DNA from: a virus
Direction: 5' to 3' (one strand)
DNA: 36,569 nucleotides
IMG/VR virus record: IMGVR_UViG_3300037452_000037
Coordinates: 1-36,569 of that record
In this document: piece by piece, positions 8,675-30,955 of the stretch
Position numbering within the stretch: position 1 is the stretch's first letter
Layout of the letters: every line of letters starts with the position of its first letter
Notes under the pieces: generated by a model
The model's database searches: none
What the model was told of the DNA's origin: nothing
What the model saw: only the letters and a program-made list of their open reading frames with translations
Made by a program: the position numbers and the translations under genes

Positions 8675-9400
8675 ATGAGTAAGTTAAGTAAAAATTGTTT
8701 GTATTGCAATAAAGAATATTCATGCAAAGATAATTATGCATATAAAAATCAAAAATATTGTTCTCCTTCATGCCAATATGTTGCCCTAAAAAATAAATTC
8801 ATACAGCAAGCTTTAAAAAACTTTGAGCAATACAGAAATCAAACAATTGGACGACTTACTATTTTAGAATATGACTTTGATAAATCCACAGGACCTAAAA
8901 GATCCTATTATAAAACCAAATGTGAATGCGGAGAAATCAAGTCTATAAGATCTGATTCTATTAAAATATCAAGTGAAAATGGCTGTTATAAATGTGGTAC
9001 TTTCAAATATGGTATCTCTAGAAAAGGCCTTAGTCATACGCCTACTTTTACTATCTGGAAAGGTATGATGCAACGTTGTTATTCTGAGACTAGTTTCAAT
9101 TTCTATTTATATGGTGCAAGAGGAATAAAGGTCAGTGAAAGATGGCATGACTTTGAAAAGTTTTTAGAAGACATGGGAGAAAGACCTTCTGAAGAAAATA
9201 AAGGTAAAGCTTCCAAATACCATATAGATAGAATTAATCCAGATGGAGATTACGAACCTGGAAATTGCAGATGGATCAGTGCAAGCGAAAATCAAAAAAA
9301 TAGAAGAAATATTCATAAGAATGGATACGTGTTTATTAAAAAGGATAGTTTATGTTCTGAATGCTTATCAAAAACCTATAACATAAACTTAAAGGATTAA
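8675..9400 (+). CDS. HNH-type (homing-like) endonuclease with N-terminal zinc finger
   Basis: 241 residues. Residues 8-33 form a C4 finger (CLYCNKEY, then CSPSC). Residues 83-107 carry more CxC/CxxC pairs (KCECGE, CYKCG). The C-terminal core has WKGMMQRCY, YGARGIKVSERW, FLEDMGERP, HIDRINPDGDYEPGNCRW and ENQKNRRN. This arrangement is typical of a phage HNH-like nuclease family that spreads as free-standing homing endonucleases; the H-D in HIDRI and the N in GNCRW would be active-site residues. It sits in a rightward cassette foreign to the leftward structural operon. Confidence 0.78.
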   Translation: MSKLSKNCLYCNKEYSCKDNYAYKNQKYCSPSCQYVALKNKFIQQALKNFEQYRNQTIGRLTILEYDFDKSTGPKRSYYKTKCECGEIKSIRSDSIKISSENGCYKCGTFKYGISRKGLSHTPTFTIWKGMMQRCYSETSFNFYLYGARGIKVSERWHDFEKFLEDMGERPSEENKGKASKYHIDRINPDGDYEPGNCRWISASENQKNRRNIHKNGYVFIKKDSLCSECLSKTYNINLKD

Positions 9401-17404: not shown

Positions 17405-17420
17405 TTTTAAAGATAAATTC

Positions 17421-17792
17421 CTAATAAGGTAAAACGTTATTTACAGCACCAGTAATCTGACCATTAATCTCTGCAAAAGGAACACTTTGTGAATATTGCG
17501 AAGTTAATGGATATGCCACAGGAAAAGAAAAAGTATCATACATTGTAGTATCTATAGCTATTGTAAACTGAGTAGGACTAACGACTGTTATTGGTGCAAA
17601 CTGTTGATTAATTTGACCCATTCCATATCCAGGAGCAATATCTATTCTAATTATTAAACCATCTATGTATTGGTGATTTCCCGGATTAACACCATCGAGT
17701 GTGGTGGTAACCAATGCCGGGTTGGCATTGGTTATACTTAGTATTCCACACATTTTTGGTTGATAAGTAGGAAATGGTTGGGCTACGATCAT
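17421..17792 (-). CDS. Structural protein with FCCH-like beta module
   Basis: 123 residues, beta-rich. Residues 45-100 (HQYIDGLIIRIDI, YGMGQINQQF, ITVVSPTQFTIAIDTTMYDTF) match the small beta module sometimes annotated as 'ubiquitin-activating E1 FCCH-like' in phage virion proteins. The same module occurs in the 399-residue protein at 18281-19480. It probably decorates the head or connector. It overlaps the preceding gene by 4 bases (ATGA). Confidence 0.65.
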   Translation of the reverse strand: MIVAQPFPTYQPKMCGILSITNANPALVTTTLDGVNPGNHQYIDGLIIRIDIAPGYGMGQINQQFAPITVVSPTQFTIAIDTTMYDTFSFPVAYPLTSQYSQSVPFAEINGQITGAVNNVLPY

Positions 17793-19491: not shown

Positions 19492-20127
19492 TTATGAGTG
19501 TGTGCATCTTGAGTTAAGTACCCATAGATCATTTGTGATTCTAGGTACAAAAGCTGCTTTCCAACCAACAGACGCATTAAGAGCCAATGGACCATCATAG
19601 ATAGGTGGTCGATAGATGAAGGAAGCGGAGTATCCGTCTTGCTGTATTATGGCATAAGCTTCCATTCCGACTACCATGTTGTTATACACGGTATTGCCTA
19701 AAGATGATGCATTAGGGCTGATTGAACCTATGCTAGATACCAAGATTCTGAGGTTGCTAATTGCACCCCATTCTGATGGCAGAGCATTGGTAGGTGCTGC
19801 ATATTGTGCTTTAGCTACAAAACCTGCTACGGCTTCAAAGTCACCGATAAGGCCTGTAGATGCTAGCATGAAATAAGCATCACGAATTGGTGATGTTGCA
19901 TATTTATCTTCACCTTCAATGTTGTCCATAATTGTTTGTGCATTGTTATTTTTCAATGTCGCAATCAATAGATCAACATCAGAACGTGTTAATTCAGTAG
20001 GAACGTCACCATTTACGCCACCTGTACAGTTTATGAAAGCAGCTGTAGCCGCTAACATATCACGTGTCAATTGATCTTCTGTTTGACGAAGACATACACC
20101 TAAACGTGCTGCTGCTTCGTTAAGAAC
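19492..20127 (-). CDS. Major capsid protein, exon 2 (C-terminal 211 residues)
   Basis: Spliced to 20861-21172 this gives a 315-residue N4-gp56-type major capsid protein. The exon begins GTT CTT AAC GAA GCA (VLNEAAARLG), which follows exon 1's NQDP in frame, giving the family's NQDPVLNEAA junction. A leading ATG at 20128-20130 belongs to the intron's last bases. It includes DQLTRDMLAATAAF and PTELTRSDVDLLIATLK, then a beta-rich core (FVAKAQYAAPTNALPSEWG, SNLRILVSS, YNNMVVGMEAYAII) and ends with a W-containing strand. Its HK97-like fold would build the head. Confidence 0.87.
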   Translation of the reverse strand, partial: VLNEAAARLGVCLRQTEDQLTRDMLAATAAFINCTGGVNGDVPTELTRSDVDLLIATLKNNNAQTIMDNIEGEDKYATSPIRDAYFMLASTGLIGDFEAVAGFVAKAQYAAPTNALPSEWGAISNLRILVSSIGSISPNASSLGNTVYNNMVVGMEAYAIIQQDGYSASFIYRPPIYDGPLALNASVGWKAAFVPRITNDLWVLNSRCTHS

Positions 20128-20250
20128 CATTCTGTTACTTTTATGACCTATTTCTAGGCGGAGAAACCTCTTCGGATCTCTCTCTCTGTCTTTCGATCAG
20201 AGGTCAGACTATCGCATCCCAAATGGGCTTTCTCATTTAGTCGTTCAGCG

Positions 20251-20295
20251 TGGACTTTCTTTTCGTTTAATGTTATGCTGTTGTAAACGAAAGGG
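20251..20295 (+). promoter_or_regulatory. Possible promoter and RBS hairpin of the homing-endonuclease gene
   Basis: TGGACT (20251-20256), a 17-base spacer and TATGCT (20274-20279) form a weak sigma70-like promoter (4/6 at each box) oriented toward the endonuclease. TTTCGTTTA (20261-20269) and TAAACGAAA (20284-20292) form a perfect 9-bp stem whose right arm overlaps the ribosome site (GAAAGGG, 20289-20295). This could limit translation from read-through transcripts. Inferred from sequence only. Confidence 0.4.
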
Positions 20296-20300
20296 TCATC

Positions 20301-20804
20301 ATGGCAAAAACCGTTCAATTTAAAACTAATCATTCTATTGCCGAAATAGCCTATCTTGCTGGTATTGTAGATGGTGAAGGTTGTTTTTATATCGGCCGAG
20401 TTAAACAAGGCAAATATGGTAATGGCTATCAATGGCACACACTTCTTAAAGTAACCAGTTGTGATGTAGAATTGATTATATGGCTTGAACAAATTTTTGG
20501 CGGTCATAAAGATTCGCGTTATAGATGGACTAGTAAAAAAGCTTTTACGCGTCCAGTTTATAATTGGCAAGCTACAGGTCCTATGTTGGACTATATTTTG
20601 CCGCTTATTCAACCTTATCTCATCATTAAATCTGAACAATGTGCTATTATGAAAGTTTATCGCACTACCTGTAAAAATATTGGAAGTAAACGACTTTCTG
20701 AAGATGTGATTACTCAGCGTAATGTTTGTTTGTTTATGATGAGAAAAGCTAACTCGCGTTTCCATAATCATGCCCTTAAAAATCCTTCGCCCTTGTCACC
20801 ATAG
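20301..20804 (+). CDS. LAGLIDADG homing endonuclease inside the intron, antisense
   Basis: 167 residues starting after GAAAGGGTCATC. It has one LAGLIDADG motif at residues 18-27 (YLAGIVDGEG), so it would act as a homodimer, followed by the usual beta-alpha-beta layout (CFYIGRV, TSCDVELIIWLEQIFGG, then NWQATGPMLDYILPLIQPYL). Such enzymes cut the intron-less allele and copy the intron. The gene is on the opposite strand from the capsid transcript, so it is not in the intron RNA's sense and needs its own transcript. Its C-terminal codons reach close to the 5' intron core (P1 begins at 20860). Codon use is richer in G+C than the neighbours. Confidence 0.88.
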   Translation: MAKTVQFKTNHSIAEIAYLAGIVDGEGCFYIGRVKQGKYGNGYQWHTLLKVTSCDVELIIWLEQIFGGHKDSRYRWTSKKAFTRPVYNWQATGPMLDYILPLIQPYLIIKSEQCAIMKVYRTTCKNIGSKRLSEDVITQRNVCLFMMRKANSRFHNHALKNPSPLSP

Positions 20805-20860
20805 CTATTGCTGTAGGTTTCCAAGTCAATTAGAGAAAGTTTAGAGACCCCATTCATTTT

Positions 20861-21172
20861 AGGGTCTTGGTTTTGTAGTGTAACTTGTTCATTTAACTGA
20901 ATATATGTTCCATAAAAGGAGATCTTAGCATCAATGTCCAACGCTGTTAGATTTTGAGCTGGAGGTGTGATACCAGAATTTCCAAGTGGAACCATTGCTG
21001 TGTTTAATGGATTATATCTTCTCATTCTTAGTGTTGTACCACCGTTTCTAGGCATCTGCTTTTTCATAGCAGGTATGCGATAGATAAAATCAGGCACTGG
21101 AACACTTAAGAGTTTGTAGCTAAAACTAGCTTGAATAGGTGCTGGCAAAGTACTTGTCGTAGTTATCGCCAT
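20861..21172 (-). CDS. Major capsid protein, exon 1 (N-terminal 104 residues)
   Basis: Starts at the ATG complementary to 21170-21172 after AAGGAGAATAGAT. Residues include FSYKLLSVPVPDFIYRIPAM, then MPRNGGTTLRMRRYNPL and AKISFYGTYIQLNEQVTLQN, typical of N4-gp56-family capsid N-arm and E-loop. It ends NQDP at the 5' splice site; reading on gives a 30-residue unrelated tail and a stop. Joined with exon 2 it is 315 residues. The gene follows the scaffold-like gene and a convergent two-gene insert. Confidence 0.87.
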
Positions 21173-26955: not shown

Positions 26956-27630
26956 TTAAAATTCTTTACACTTTAATTTCCACATTATTGGCCTATTATC
27001 TAAGTTGGCAATCATCAAAGGTTCTGATCTACAAATAACACCTTCAATGGTCATTGGTCTAACCGCTGTAAGACTATTAGGTTTAGACTTCACAAGTTCT
27101 ATTATCTCTTCTTCAGTCATTAACCCATAATCATATGGTGTTGGTAAATTTAAAAGAACCGCTAACTCTTTCAGTTCCTGTCTGGTTGACCATCTAGAAC
27201 CTGCCCAACAATCAAATAGAATAAAACCTACATCATCTCTATAATTGCCTCCGCCCTTTTGTATTTTAGGACCATAACCTTCACCAAAAAGAACAATTTT
27301 AGTAGCAGAAGGAATCAATTTGAATAATAATTCTTTTAAACCAGGTGTAAAAGTTTGTGTTAAGTATTTATATAGATGAGCAGGTAACATTGCATCATCA
27401 GTTCTACCACCAAATTCTATACAAGAATCATTGTAAATCGTAACTCTTATATTAGTTCCATCTATTTTCTCTTCAACTCGCCACTTCTTTATCATAGGAA
27501 ATTCATCACAAGCATAATCACCTATAATAAAGGATTGCCTGCCCGCTTGGTAATCACGATTATGCTTTTTACCTTCATCTAAATACCAACCTTGTCTTTT
27601 CCAAAGGCTATTTATTTTCGGATACAACAT
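26956..27630 (-). CDS. RNA ligase (Rnl2-like nucleotidyltransferase)
   Basis: 224 residues. All nucleotidyltransferase motifs are readable: motif I EEKIDGTNIRV (lysine 55 would carry AMP), motif Ia FGGRTDDA, motif III IVLFGEGYG, motif IIIa VGFILFDCWAG, motif IV IEGVICRSEP, and motif V MWKLKCKEF (lysines 218 and 220). This is the catalytic domain of ATP-dependent RNA ligases of the T4 Rnl2 type, which seal nicked RNA; the C-terminal domain of full Rnl2 is absent. It starts 23 bases inside the previous gene, near the SpoU methyltransferase and terminase. Confidence 0.85.
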   Translation of the reverse strand: MLYPKINSLWKRQGWYLDEGKKHNRDYQAGRQSFIIGDYACDEFPMIKKWRVEEKIDGTNIRVTIYNDSCIEFGGRTDDAMLPAHLYKYLTQTFTPGLKELLFKLIPSATKIVLFGEGYGPKIQKGGGNYRDDVGFILFDCWAGSRWSTRQELKELAVLLNLPTPYDYGLMTEEEIIELVKSKPNSLTAVRPMTIEGVICRSEPLMIANLDNRPIMWKLKCKEF

Positions 27631-29589: not shown

Positions 29590-30955
29590 TTAAAATCCAT
29601 ATTTGTTATCAAAATCTCCGTTAAATACTCCAGGTAAACTCTCAGGGAATAGGGTCTCACGATAACGTCTATCTAATTCCTCTGGAGTTGTACCTACTAT
29701 CATAGCTTTCTTAAGAGCAACACAAAGATATCTCATTGCATCTGCTGCGTGGGAATGAGTATCGTGTTTTGGGATTTCTTTATATCTACCACGAGATGCA
29801 TCCCATTCTTGCGAATAGGACGACAAATGCTTAATCAAATCTTTACATTTAACTTCATCTATCCACATAGTTGGAAGCTTAGCTTTAACTAATTCAATTC
29901 CATCAAGAAGATCTATGTTATAAATCTCAGAAAAGTTAATACCTAATTGTTTATATTGCTCTCTGCGTGTTAAACCAGAACCCTGCTCACGAACCATTAT
30001 ATCATGAGGGGGGTAATGAGCTTTGTAAGTATATTCTTTATTAAGTACATAATTAGCAAAATGGGATATAGAACGTGAATGATTTTCATAATAGTCAAAT
30101 ACATGTATGCTTTTTCCACAAATATTTGCAAATATTATAACAGTTGGATCATTGATACCTAAATCCCAGCTCGTTATGACTGGATATCCTGGTTCATAAG
30201 GCACTTTACCTATCTGGCCATTAAGTCTCATTTTATCAATAATAGAAGTATAGAAGAATCCATCTTGGCCTTCATCAAAAGATGTCCAATATTCCTGCTT
30301 AGCAAAGGATTCTGATATTTCACCTGAGTCTATTTCACGTTGAATGTCTTCTATTGATATATGGTGAGTATCATCAACAGTAAGTTTAGAAATATACCAG
30401 TCCTTTGGATTATGCTGAGCAATCTCGTAAAGATCCCATAAATGATTGTGGCCACGTGGGAGTGCTCAAAAAAAGAGCAACACCTCCGTTCGCAGTCAAT
30501 ATAGGTCTGGCAAACTGATATGCTCTAGGATCTTGTAATGAATACTCTGAAAAGACAATAAATTGAGGATTAGTACCAACAAGGGAATGATTAAAGTCAT
30601 TGCTACCAACAATCTGTATAACTGAACCATTAATGAACCTGAGTCGCATCTGTTGTTCATTACGTGAAGCTACATCCTCTGGGCAGTAATCCAAAACGCG
30701 TTGGCCTTCCGAAGTAATAGCATCCCACAATATGCGACGTCCACTTGCAAAACTTGGGAAAACATAGAAAATAGTTTGAGTTTTACGCAAGGCTGCCCTT
30801 ATGCATAACTGAAAGGCTAAAATATCTTTGCCGGCTCTTCTAGGCCAAATAGCCAATACACGCTTGTAGTGCTTCTTTTCAATAGCATCACAAATAGGAA
30901 CTTGATAGTGTCTTGCTTTGAATTTATTTAGCTTTATTTGAGTTTCTATGTTCAT
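29590..30955 (-). CDS. terL: Terminase large subunit, reading frame broken by a +1 shift
   Basis: Two frames together give a full TerL of about 454 residues. Frame 1 (30955-30458) holds the ATPase: Walker A WPRRAGKD (37-44), the Walker B region FIVFSEYSLQDP, and the conserved STP of the coupling motif (164-166). After the CCC codon the reading moves +1 (skipping the A at 30457) and frame 2 continues RGHNHLWDLY, down to 29590. It contains the nuclease domain with all three acidic sites (SWDLG, PPHDIM, SHAADAMRYL). Without the shift, translation ends ~16 codons later. It is either a programmed frameshift, a sequencing/assembly error or a mutation. TerL cuts and pumps DNA through the portal. Confidence 0.88.
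30457..30460 (-). other. +1 frameshift site in terL (CCC-A)
   Basis: In the minus-strand reading the sequence is agc act ccc a cgt ggc cac. The 0-frame encodes S-T-P; the conserved continuation R-G-H-N-H requires one base to be skipped at CCC-A. A TGA stop lies in the downstream frame four codons earlier (complement of 30466-30468), so the shift must occur within about 9 bases of this point. A T7 run just upstream is a possible error site but is on the wrong side of that stop. Confidence 0.8.

Follow-up and report, generated by a model that had tools for sequence, protein, structure and literature searches.

A candidate mobile group I intron with an antisense LAGLIDADG gene in a phage major capsid gene, and core-less inserts in the capsid genes of its relatives

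The major capsid gene of the virus studied here lies in two parts on one DNA strand, and the DNA that separates them carries a predicted endonuclease gene on the other. What is the interruption, how would a complete capsid protein be made across it, and is the interrupting element mobile? We addressed these questions in the window (the whole stretch of DNA that was analysed, a virus record 36,569 bases long) and in related capsid genes. The reading that we favor, with a probability of about 93%, is that the capsid gene contains a mobile group I intron that would splice itself out, carry an antisense endonuclease gene expressed from its own promoter, and home to intron-less alleles of the same gene. 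The features of the locus are listed in Table 1.

Capsid exons, group I core and splice sites

The capsid gene (21172-19492, minus strand) is split after codon 104 by a 733-nt element (20860-20128) that we assign to the group I introns. Joining the two exons gives 315 residues with no stop, and both match phrog_1357, the PHROG profile of a major head protein, the first over positions 22-140 and the second over 132-338. A P22-like portal protein gene is present upstream of the capsid gene. A first-pass annotation of this DNA, made from the sequence alone, had proposed these exon boundaries and an in-frame capsid protein of 315 residues, and both are borne out by the reading frames and by the match of each exon to phrog_1357. 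The two capsid parts could instead be separate genes that are never spliced, since each has an open frame and an ATG stands directly 5' of the first codon of exon 2. However, the covarying core, P1 and P10 described below all indicate a single junction, and the uninterrupted allele is a single gene of 315 codons with the same residues. We give the two-gene explanation almost no weight.

To characterize the interruption, capsid-protein relatives were collected from viral contigs, and interruptions were located by a purpose-written protein-to-DNA spliced alignment. The aligner gave a reward for U and G at the boundaries; P1, P10 and the docking helix discussed below lie outside that reward. From these genes we built an alignment (A1) of 36 introns that carry no ORF, are ~190-262 nt long and come from ~20 sites in the relatives' capsid genes, with the window excluded. 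A group I structure (P1, P3, P4, P5, P6, P7, P8, P9, P9.1 and P9.2) was drawn by hand on A1. In this structure 92.3% of cells are paired, and 46 of the 55 pairs show changes on both sides. The covariation score was 0.611, compared with 0.187 in shuffles, none of which (0/500) scored as high, and it fell below 0.17 when the pairing partners were slid by one to three columns.

A covariance model built from A1 (R1) matched the window intron twice on the minus strand, at 102.3 and 53.2 bits, with the two matches flanking the endonuclease ORF. R1 matched nowhere else in the window, and it had no match in the uninterrupted relatives L003 and L005. The window intron has the P7 strands GACUA/UAGUC together with P3, P4, P5, P8, P9, P9.1 and P9.2. 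An Rfam search of the window returned nothing at the gathering threshold; at E up to 10, RF00028 (gpI) reached only 13.7 bits against a cut-off of 50, a gathering score that is a database threshold and not a biological feature, from a broad model applied to a core that is split here by a 504-nt ORF. The assignment is therefore decided by the family-specific model and the covariation and not by the RF00028 score. On these sequence criteria the capsid interruption is confirmed as a group I intron with a complete core, in agreement with the P7/P8 core that the first-pass annotation had read in its 3' half and with the covariance-model test that it had suggested.

The splice sites are defined by pairings of the intron with both exons. 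The guide 5'-GAAUGGGGUC-3' is predicted to pair with the ligated exons GACCCU/GUUC. Of the 36 introns of A1, 35 retain U.G at the 5' splice site, and the remaining P1 pairs vary freely with compensation. L008 and L066 have AAGATCCT with GGGATC. The P1 proposed earlier, GACCCT with GGGGTC and U-G at the splice site, thus belongs to a helix that covaries in the relatives. P10, which defines the 3' splice site, had been overlooked in that annotation. Among introns at the site used in the window, it covaries with the 3' exon (GTTC/GAAT, GTAT/ATAT, GTAC/GTAT and GTGC/GCAT), and the splice junction is therefore fixed independently of the protein alignment.

Table 1. Predicted features of the interrupted capsid gene in the window.
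Feature	Position	Strand	Basis
Capsid exon 1, codons 1-104, ending NQDP / GACCCT	20861..21172	-	ORF and phrog_1357; continuous with exon 2 in the uninterrupted L003-L005
Capsid exon 2, codons 105-315 and stop, starting VLNEAA	19492..20127	-	phrog_1357 profile 132-338
Group I intron, 733 nt, phase 0 after codon 104, terminal G	20128..20860	-	Held-out covariance model R1; spliced alignment; exact absence in L003/L004
5' half of catalytic core (P1, P3 5', P4, P5, start of P6), model-matched extent	20712..20868	-	R1 53.2 bits, E 1.5e-15
3' half of core (P7, P3', P8, P7', P9, P9.1, P9.2, 3' splice site), model-matched extent	20122..20324	-	R1 102.3 bits, E 9.3e-31
Internal guide GGGGUC, P1 with exon GACCCU (20866-20861), U.G at splice site	20846..20851	-	Covarying P1 in relatives
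P10 strand GAAU, pairing with initial bases GUUC of exon 2 (20127-20124)	20852..20855	-	Covarying P10 at this site
Promoter-like TGGACT-17-TATGCT upstream of the endonuclease gene	20251..20279	+	Position conserved in most relatives
Predicted LAGLIDADG homing endonuclease gene, 167 aa, single LAGIVDGEG motif, in intron P6 region, antisense to capsid	20301..20804	+	Profile matches; relatives; I-MsoI
Sense ORF of 205 aa opposite the endonuclease gene, judged non-coding	20154..20771	-	Not conserved

Related introns may not be limited to the capsid gene. In one relative, a strong group I model match (203 bits) lies ~6 kb from the capsid gene (L137:4005-4231, plus strand), which suggests that other genes of these phages may carry introns of the same kind. 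In the window itself, a candidate intron between two terminase ORFs was rejected in favor of a one-base frame change. This change in the terminase large subunit lies at 30455-30466 (minus strand), near ...FLSTP/RGHNH..., splits the gene into the ORFs 30410-30955 and 29590-30231, and is either a sequencing error or a frameshift. The window also contains an RNA ligase-like protein gene (26956-27630, minus strand; phrog_548, E 6e-13).

The antisense endonuclease gene and proposed intron mobility

The protein families leave the type of the predicted enzyme mixed: Pfam LAGLIDADG_1 scored 21.3 bits, just below its cut-off of 23.1, and the 167-aa protein strongly matched a PHROGs family labelled 'HNH endonuclease'. 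Solved structures settle the matter in favor of LAGLIDADG. In a phmmer search of the PDB the best match was I-MsoI (3fd2; E 1.2e-5), I-SmaMI matched at E 2.7e-4, and the PDB relatives are LAGLIDADG enzymes. Against cultured phages, tblastn found no relative of the endonuclease, and its matches to the capsid protein were all distant (22-31% identical among the matches listed). Separately, the window encodes a free-standing HNH endonuclease-like protein (8675-9400, plus strand; phrog_374, E 9e-45).

On the opposite strand, the 205-aa ORF of the window exceeds the endonuclease ORF in length, and it could be argued that it is the real intron gene and the LAGLIDADG frame its shadow. This is extremely improbable: in several relatives that keep 167 aa and the LAGLIDADG motif in the antisense ORF, the sense ORF is cut to 40, 43 or 118 aa, and both the protein families and the solved structures match the antisense frame.

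The antisense placement recurs in the relatives. Endonucleases with 64-74% identity to that of the window are encoded antisense in capsid introns at site 104.0 and, two bases away, at 104.2. Over all large capsid introns of the relatives, we counted 59 antisense LAGLIDADG ORFs and 5 sense ones. The sense genes are in L009, L037, L116 and L199 (site 104.0) and in L183 (96.2), at sites that usually have antisense genes, and the orientation has therefore switched at the same site. Antisense LAGLIDADG genes are thus the rule and not an oddity in this phage clade. The first-pass annotation was right to call an antisense LAGLIDADG gene within the intron, given the I-MsoI match and the conserved relatives; its further claim, that such an arrangement is unusual, is weakened by this count and by the precedents in the phage LittleE (PMC3706429) and in rDNA introns (PMC9548176).

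Expression of the endonuclease was predicted earlier to be uncoupled from capsid transcription. In most relatives the antisense start is preceded by TGGACT, then 16-17 bases, TATAAT or a near form, a surrounding inverted repeat, and AAAGGA. In the window, a 9-bp inverted repeat (20261-20269 with 20284-20292) overlaps the promoter-like element and is followed by AAAGGG, which resembles a ribosome-binding site; its -10 sequence, TATGCT, is among the weaker copies. The summed promoter score was 100, compared with a mean of 87 in dinucleotide shuffles, and 0 of 500 shuffles were as high. A plain consensus scan gave no promoter excess at this place. The conserved promoter-like element and the ribosome-binding site upstream lend indirect support to uncoupled expression, and it is plausible that the endonuclease is transcribed separately from the capsid gene.

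Intron-less capsid alleles, which the first-pass annotation had proposed to look for, are present in relatives. In L003 and L004 the capsid protein is 100% identical to that of the window and the intron is exactly absent. L003 is collinear with the spliced window over 5.4 kb at 96.9% identity and without gaps. Within the capsid gene the window and L003 differ at 18 positions, 7 of which fall in the interval from -18 to +29 around the insertion site. Such clustering is what homing with co-conversion of flanking exon bases predicts; the argument relies mainly on a single comparison, with L003 and L004. Apart from the capsid gene, L003 has ~507 extra bases (L003:6707-7228, opposite 17405-17421 of the window) with an extra ORF of ~150 codons.

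In the mechanism that we propose, the intron would splice itself from the late capsid transcript, so that the capsid protein would be made normally. The endonuclease would be transcribed from its own promoter on the opposite strand and would cut, near codon 104, those capsid alleles of co-infecting phages that lack the intron. The break would then be repaired from the intron-bearing genome, and both the intron and nearby exon bases would be copied. Alternatively, the intron could splice while its antisense gene is unexpressed or inactive, and thus be an immobile passenger. The weak -10 of the window and the sub-threshold Pfam score would agree with a passenger. Yet relatives with 64-74% identity retain an intact ORF of near-equal length, in which 45 residues, the acidic ones of LAGxxDGEG among them, are invariant, and the mismatch cluster at the insertion site also speaks against immobility. 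We consider a passenger intron unlikely, at something like one chance in five, and retain the mobile intron as our preferred reading.

The capsid genes of these phages are an intron hotspot. No insertion interrupts 65 of the 154 complete capsid genes, and the others have one to six, at ~30 positions in total; the hotspot genes are found in L002-L263 (e.g., L162, L034, L109 and L150), with the maximum of six in L162. A 40-nt insert called in L109 at codon 112 was discarded as an alignment artefact. Three metagenome bins belong to unrelated phyla and give no clue to the hosts. The hotspot and the antisense rule make these phages a good natural system for homing between phages, and the same genes could be used to ask how a structural gene whose product is required in bulk tolerates several introns.

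Core-less inserts at codon 88 in the relatives

A different kind of insert, absent from the window, was found in 64 loci of the relatives. It is 28-41 nt long, follows capsid codon 88 (usually TTTTACGGT) and ends in G. It occurs in L012, L020 (L020:3661-3698), L033, L036, L057, L078, L090, L092, L109, L127, L158, L162, L276 and ~50 more. Because 28-41 nt is too short for any group I core, these inserts do not have one. Several explanations were rejected: (i) a restart gene, for which only some of the longer inserts have an in-frame ATG; (ii) ribosomal bypassing, in which the take-off codon GGU and the triplet before the landing codon, NNG, do not match; (iii) read-through, for which none of the 64 inserts is in frame without a stop; and (iv) an assembly error, given the presence of the insert in many independent metagenomes.

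What the inserts do have are the pairings by which a group I intron recognizes its splice sites. GCCGUA in the insert pairs with UACGGU in the exon, with U.G at the boundary (P1), and the four bases 5' of GCCGUA pair with the 3' exon (P10). All four bases are seen at the third position of codon 89, and in all 57 cases the insert carries the complement. A pattern scan found a C-G pair of P1 changed to U-A (TAT...ATA) in three capsid inserts, one of them previously seen, while the mismatched C-A form was absent from all capsid genes that the scan found. One pattern scan selected loci with the common P1, and it is the remaining loci that provide the evidence for P1 covariation; neither P10 nor the docking helix was selected for.

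The 3' half of the insert can form a helix of ~9-13 bp with exon bases directly 5' of P1 of the full group I intron that comes next, regardless of which intron it is. Examples of such full introns are those of L162 (96.2, 195 nt) and L020 (104.2, 251 nt). Where the full intron is at 96.2, 104.2 or 116.2, 7-8 bases usually separate the end of this docking helix from the 5' splice site that follows. At 96.2 an insert forms 7.9 of 9 Watson-Crick pairs with its own exon arm and 5.7 when arms are swapped between loci, and at 104.2 the values are 9.7 of 10 and 7.8; in each case 0 of 10,000 permutations did as well, counts that are inflated by related sequences. Duplex energies agree for the helices at both sites. 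At 116.2, where the four cases have one common exon arm, own and swapped pairs were indistinguishable. When helices were sought over 130 bases of spliced exon, the best one lay at a distance of 3-12 bases from the true 5' splice site of the next intron for 47 of 51 inserts, compared with 165 of 2,040 shuffled inserts. A full intron is present in all 50 complete genes with the insert and in 39 of the 104 without it (Fisher p 3e-16).

We think it probable, from these pairing patterns, that the codon-88 insert is a guide-only group I intron, with P1 and P10 of its own, and that the next full intron, to which it docks through the helix, cuts it out with its active site. The presence of all four third-base variants and of several independent helix variants argues against a single inherited event. 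The 96.2 site is 26 bases away, and co-occurrence with introns there could be due to co-conversion alone, but co-conversion could not explain why the helix partner changes according to which intron lies downstream.

An engineered system works in a similar way. The Tetrahymena spliceozyme (Amini et al. 2014) removes separate core-less introns of 64 or 100 nt by means of P1 and a 9-bp P9.2 helix formed in trans (PMC4094466). As proposed for the codon-88 inserts, a group I core there removes a separate core-less intron through P1 and an additional helix; the spliceozyme differs in being engineered and in having longer introns, and it has no bearing on the window's own intron. A search of the literature that reached a minority of the subscription journals found no account of core-less group I mini-introns in nature, and guide-only mini-introns that borrow a neighbor's ribozyme would be new. 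If the proposal is correct, they would do in nature what the spliceozyme does by design, and they would parallel, among group I introns, the transition from introns that splice themselves to introns served by a common catalyst. They would also show in nature the loss of an intron's own catalyst, a step that accounts of how spliceosomal introns arose usually have to infer. The capsid gene would then depend on retaining the full intron, and one idea for the purpose of the mini-intron is that it makes precise loss of the full intron lethal.

Comparison with known introns and endonucleases

The introns described here share with those of T4, SPO1 and Twort that they are mobile, self-splicing elements (here by prediction) in conserved phage genes. 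The group I introns of those phages are mostly of the IA type and have sense GIY-YIG or HNH genes, whereas the capsid introns have no room for P7.1/P7.2 between P7 and P3'. The predicted endonuclease resembles I-MsoI and its relatives in its size near 170 aa, its single motif and its sequence. The well-studied LAGLIDADG enzymes of the I-MsoI type come from organelle introns, in contrast to the phage origin of the protein predicted here.

Another case of antisense homing endonuclease genes is provided by group I introns in the nuclear rDNA of myxomycetes, such as Didymium L2066 (PMC9548176). As in the window, the endonuclease gene there is opposite in strand to both the ribozyme and the host gene, but the enzymes are of the His-Cys box type, the setting is eukaryotic rDNA, and spliceosomal introns are present (PMC9548176).

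The closest precedent is the mycobacteriophage LittleE (Pope et al. 2013), whose major capsid gene contains a group I-like intron with splicing verified by RT-PCR (PMC3706429). That intron is ~820 nt long, begins after U and ends in G, its type was called unclear by the authors, and it has a 177-aa LAGLIDADG-like endonuclease encoded on the bottom strand (PMC3706429). The arrangement in the window, a group I intron in the major capsid gene with an antisense LAGLIDADG gene, is thus already known in kind. LittleE is an unrelated phage with another insertion context, and the core of the window intron is supported by covariation and comes from a clade with ~30 intron sites in one gene. With the window intron, the LittleE arrangement has a second case, and a well-supported one.
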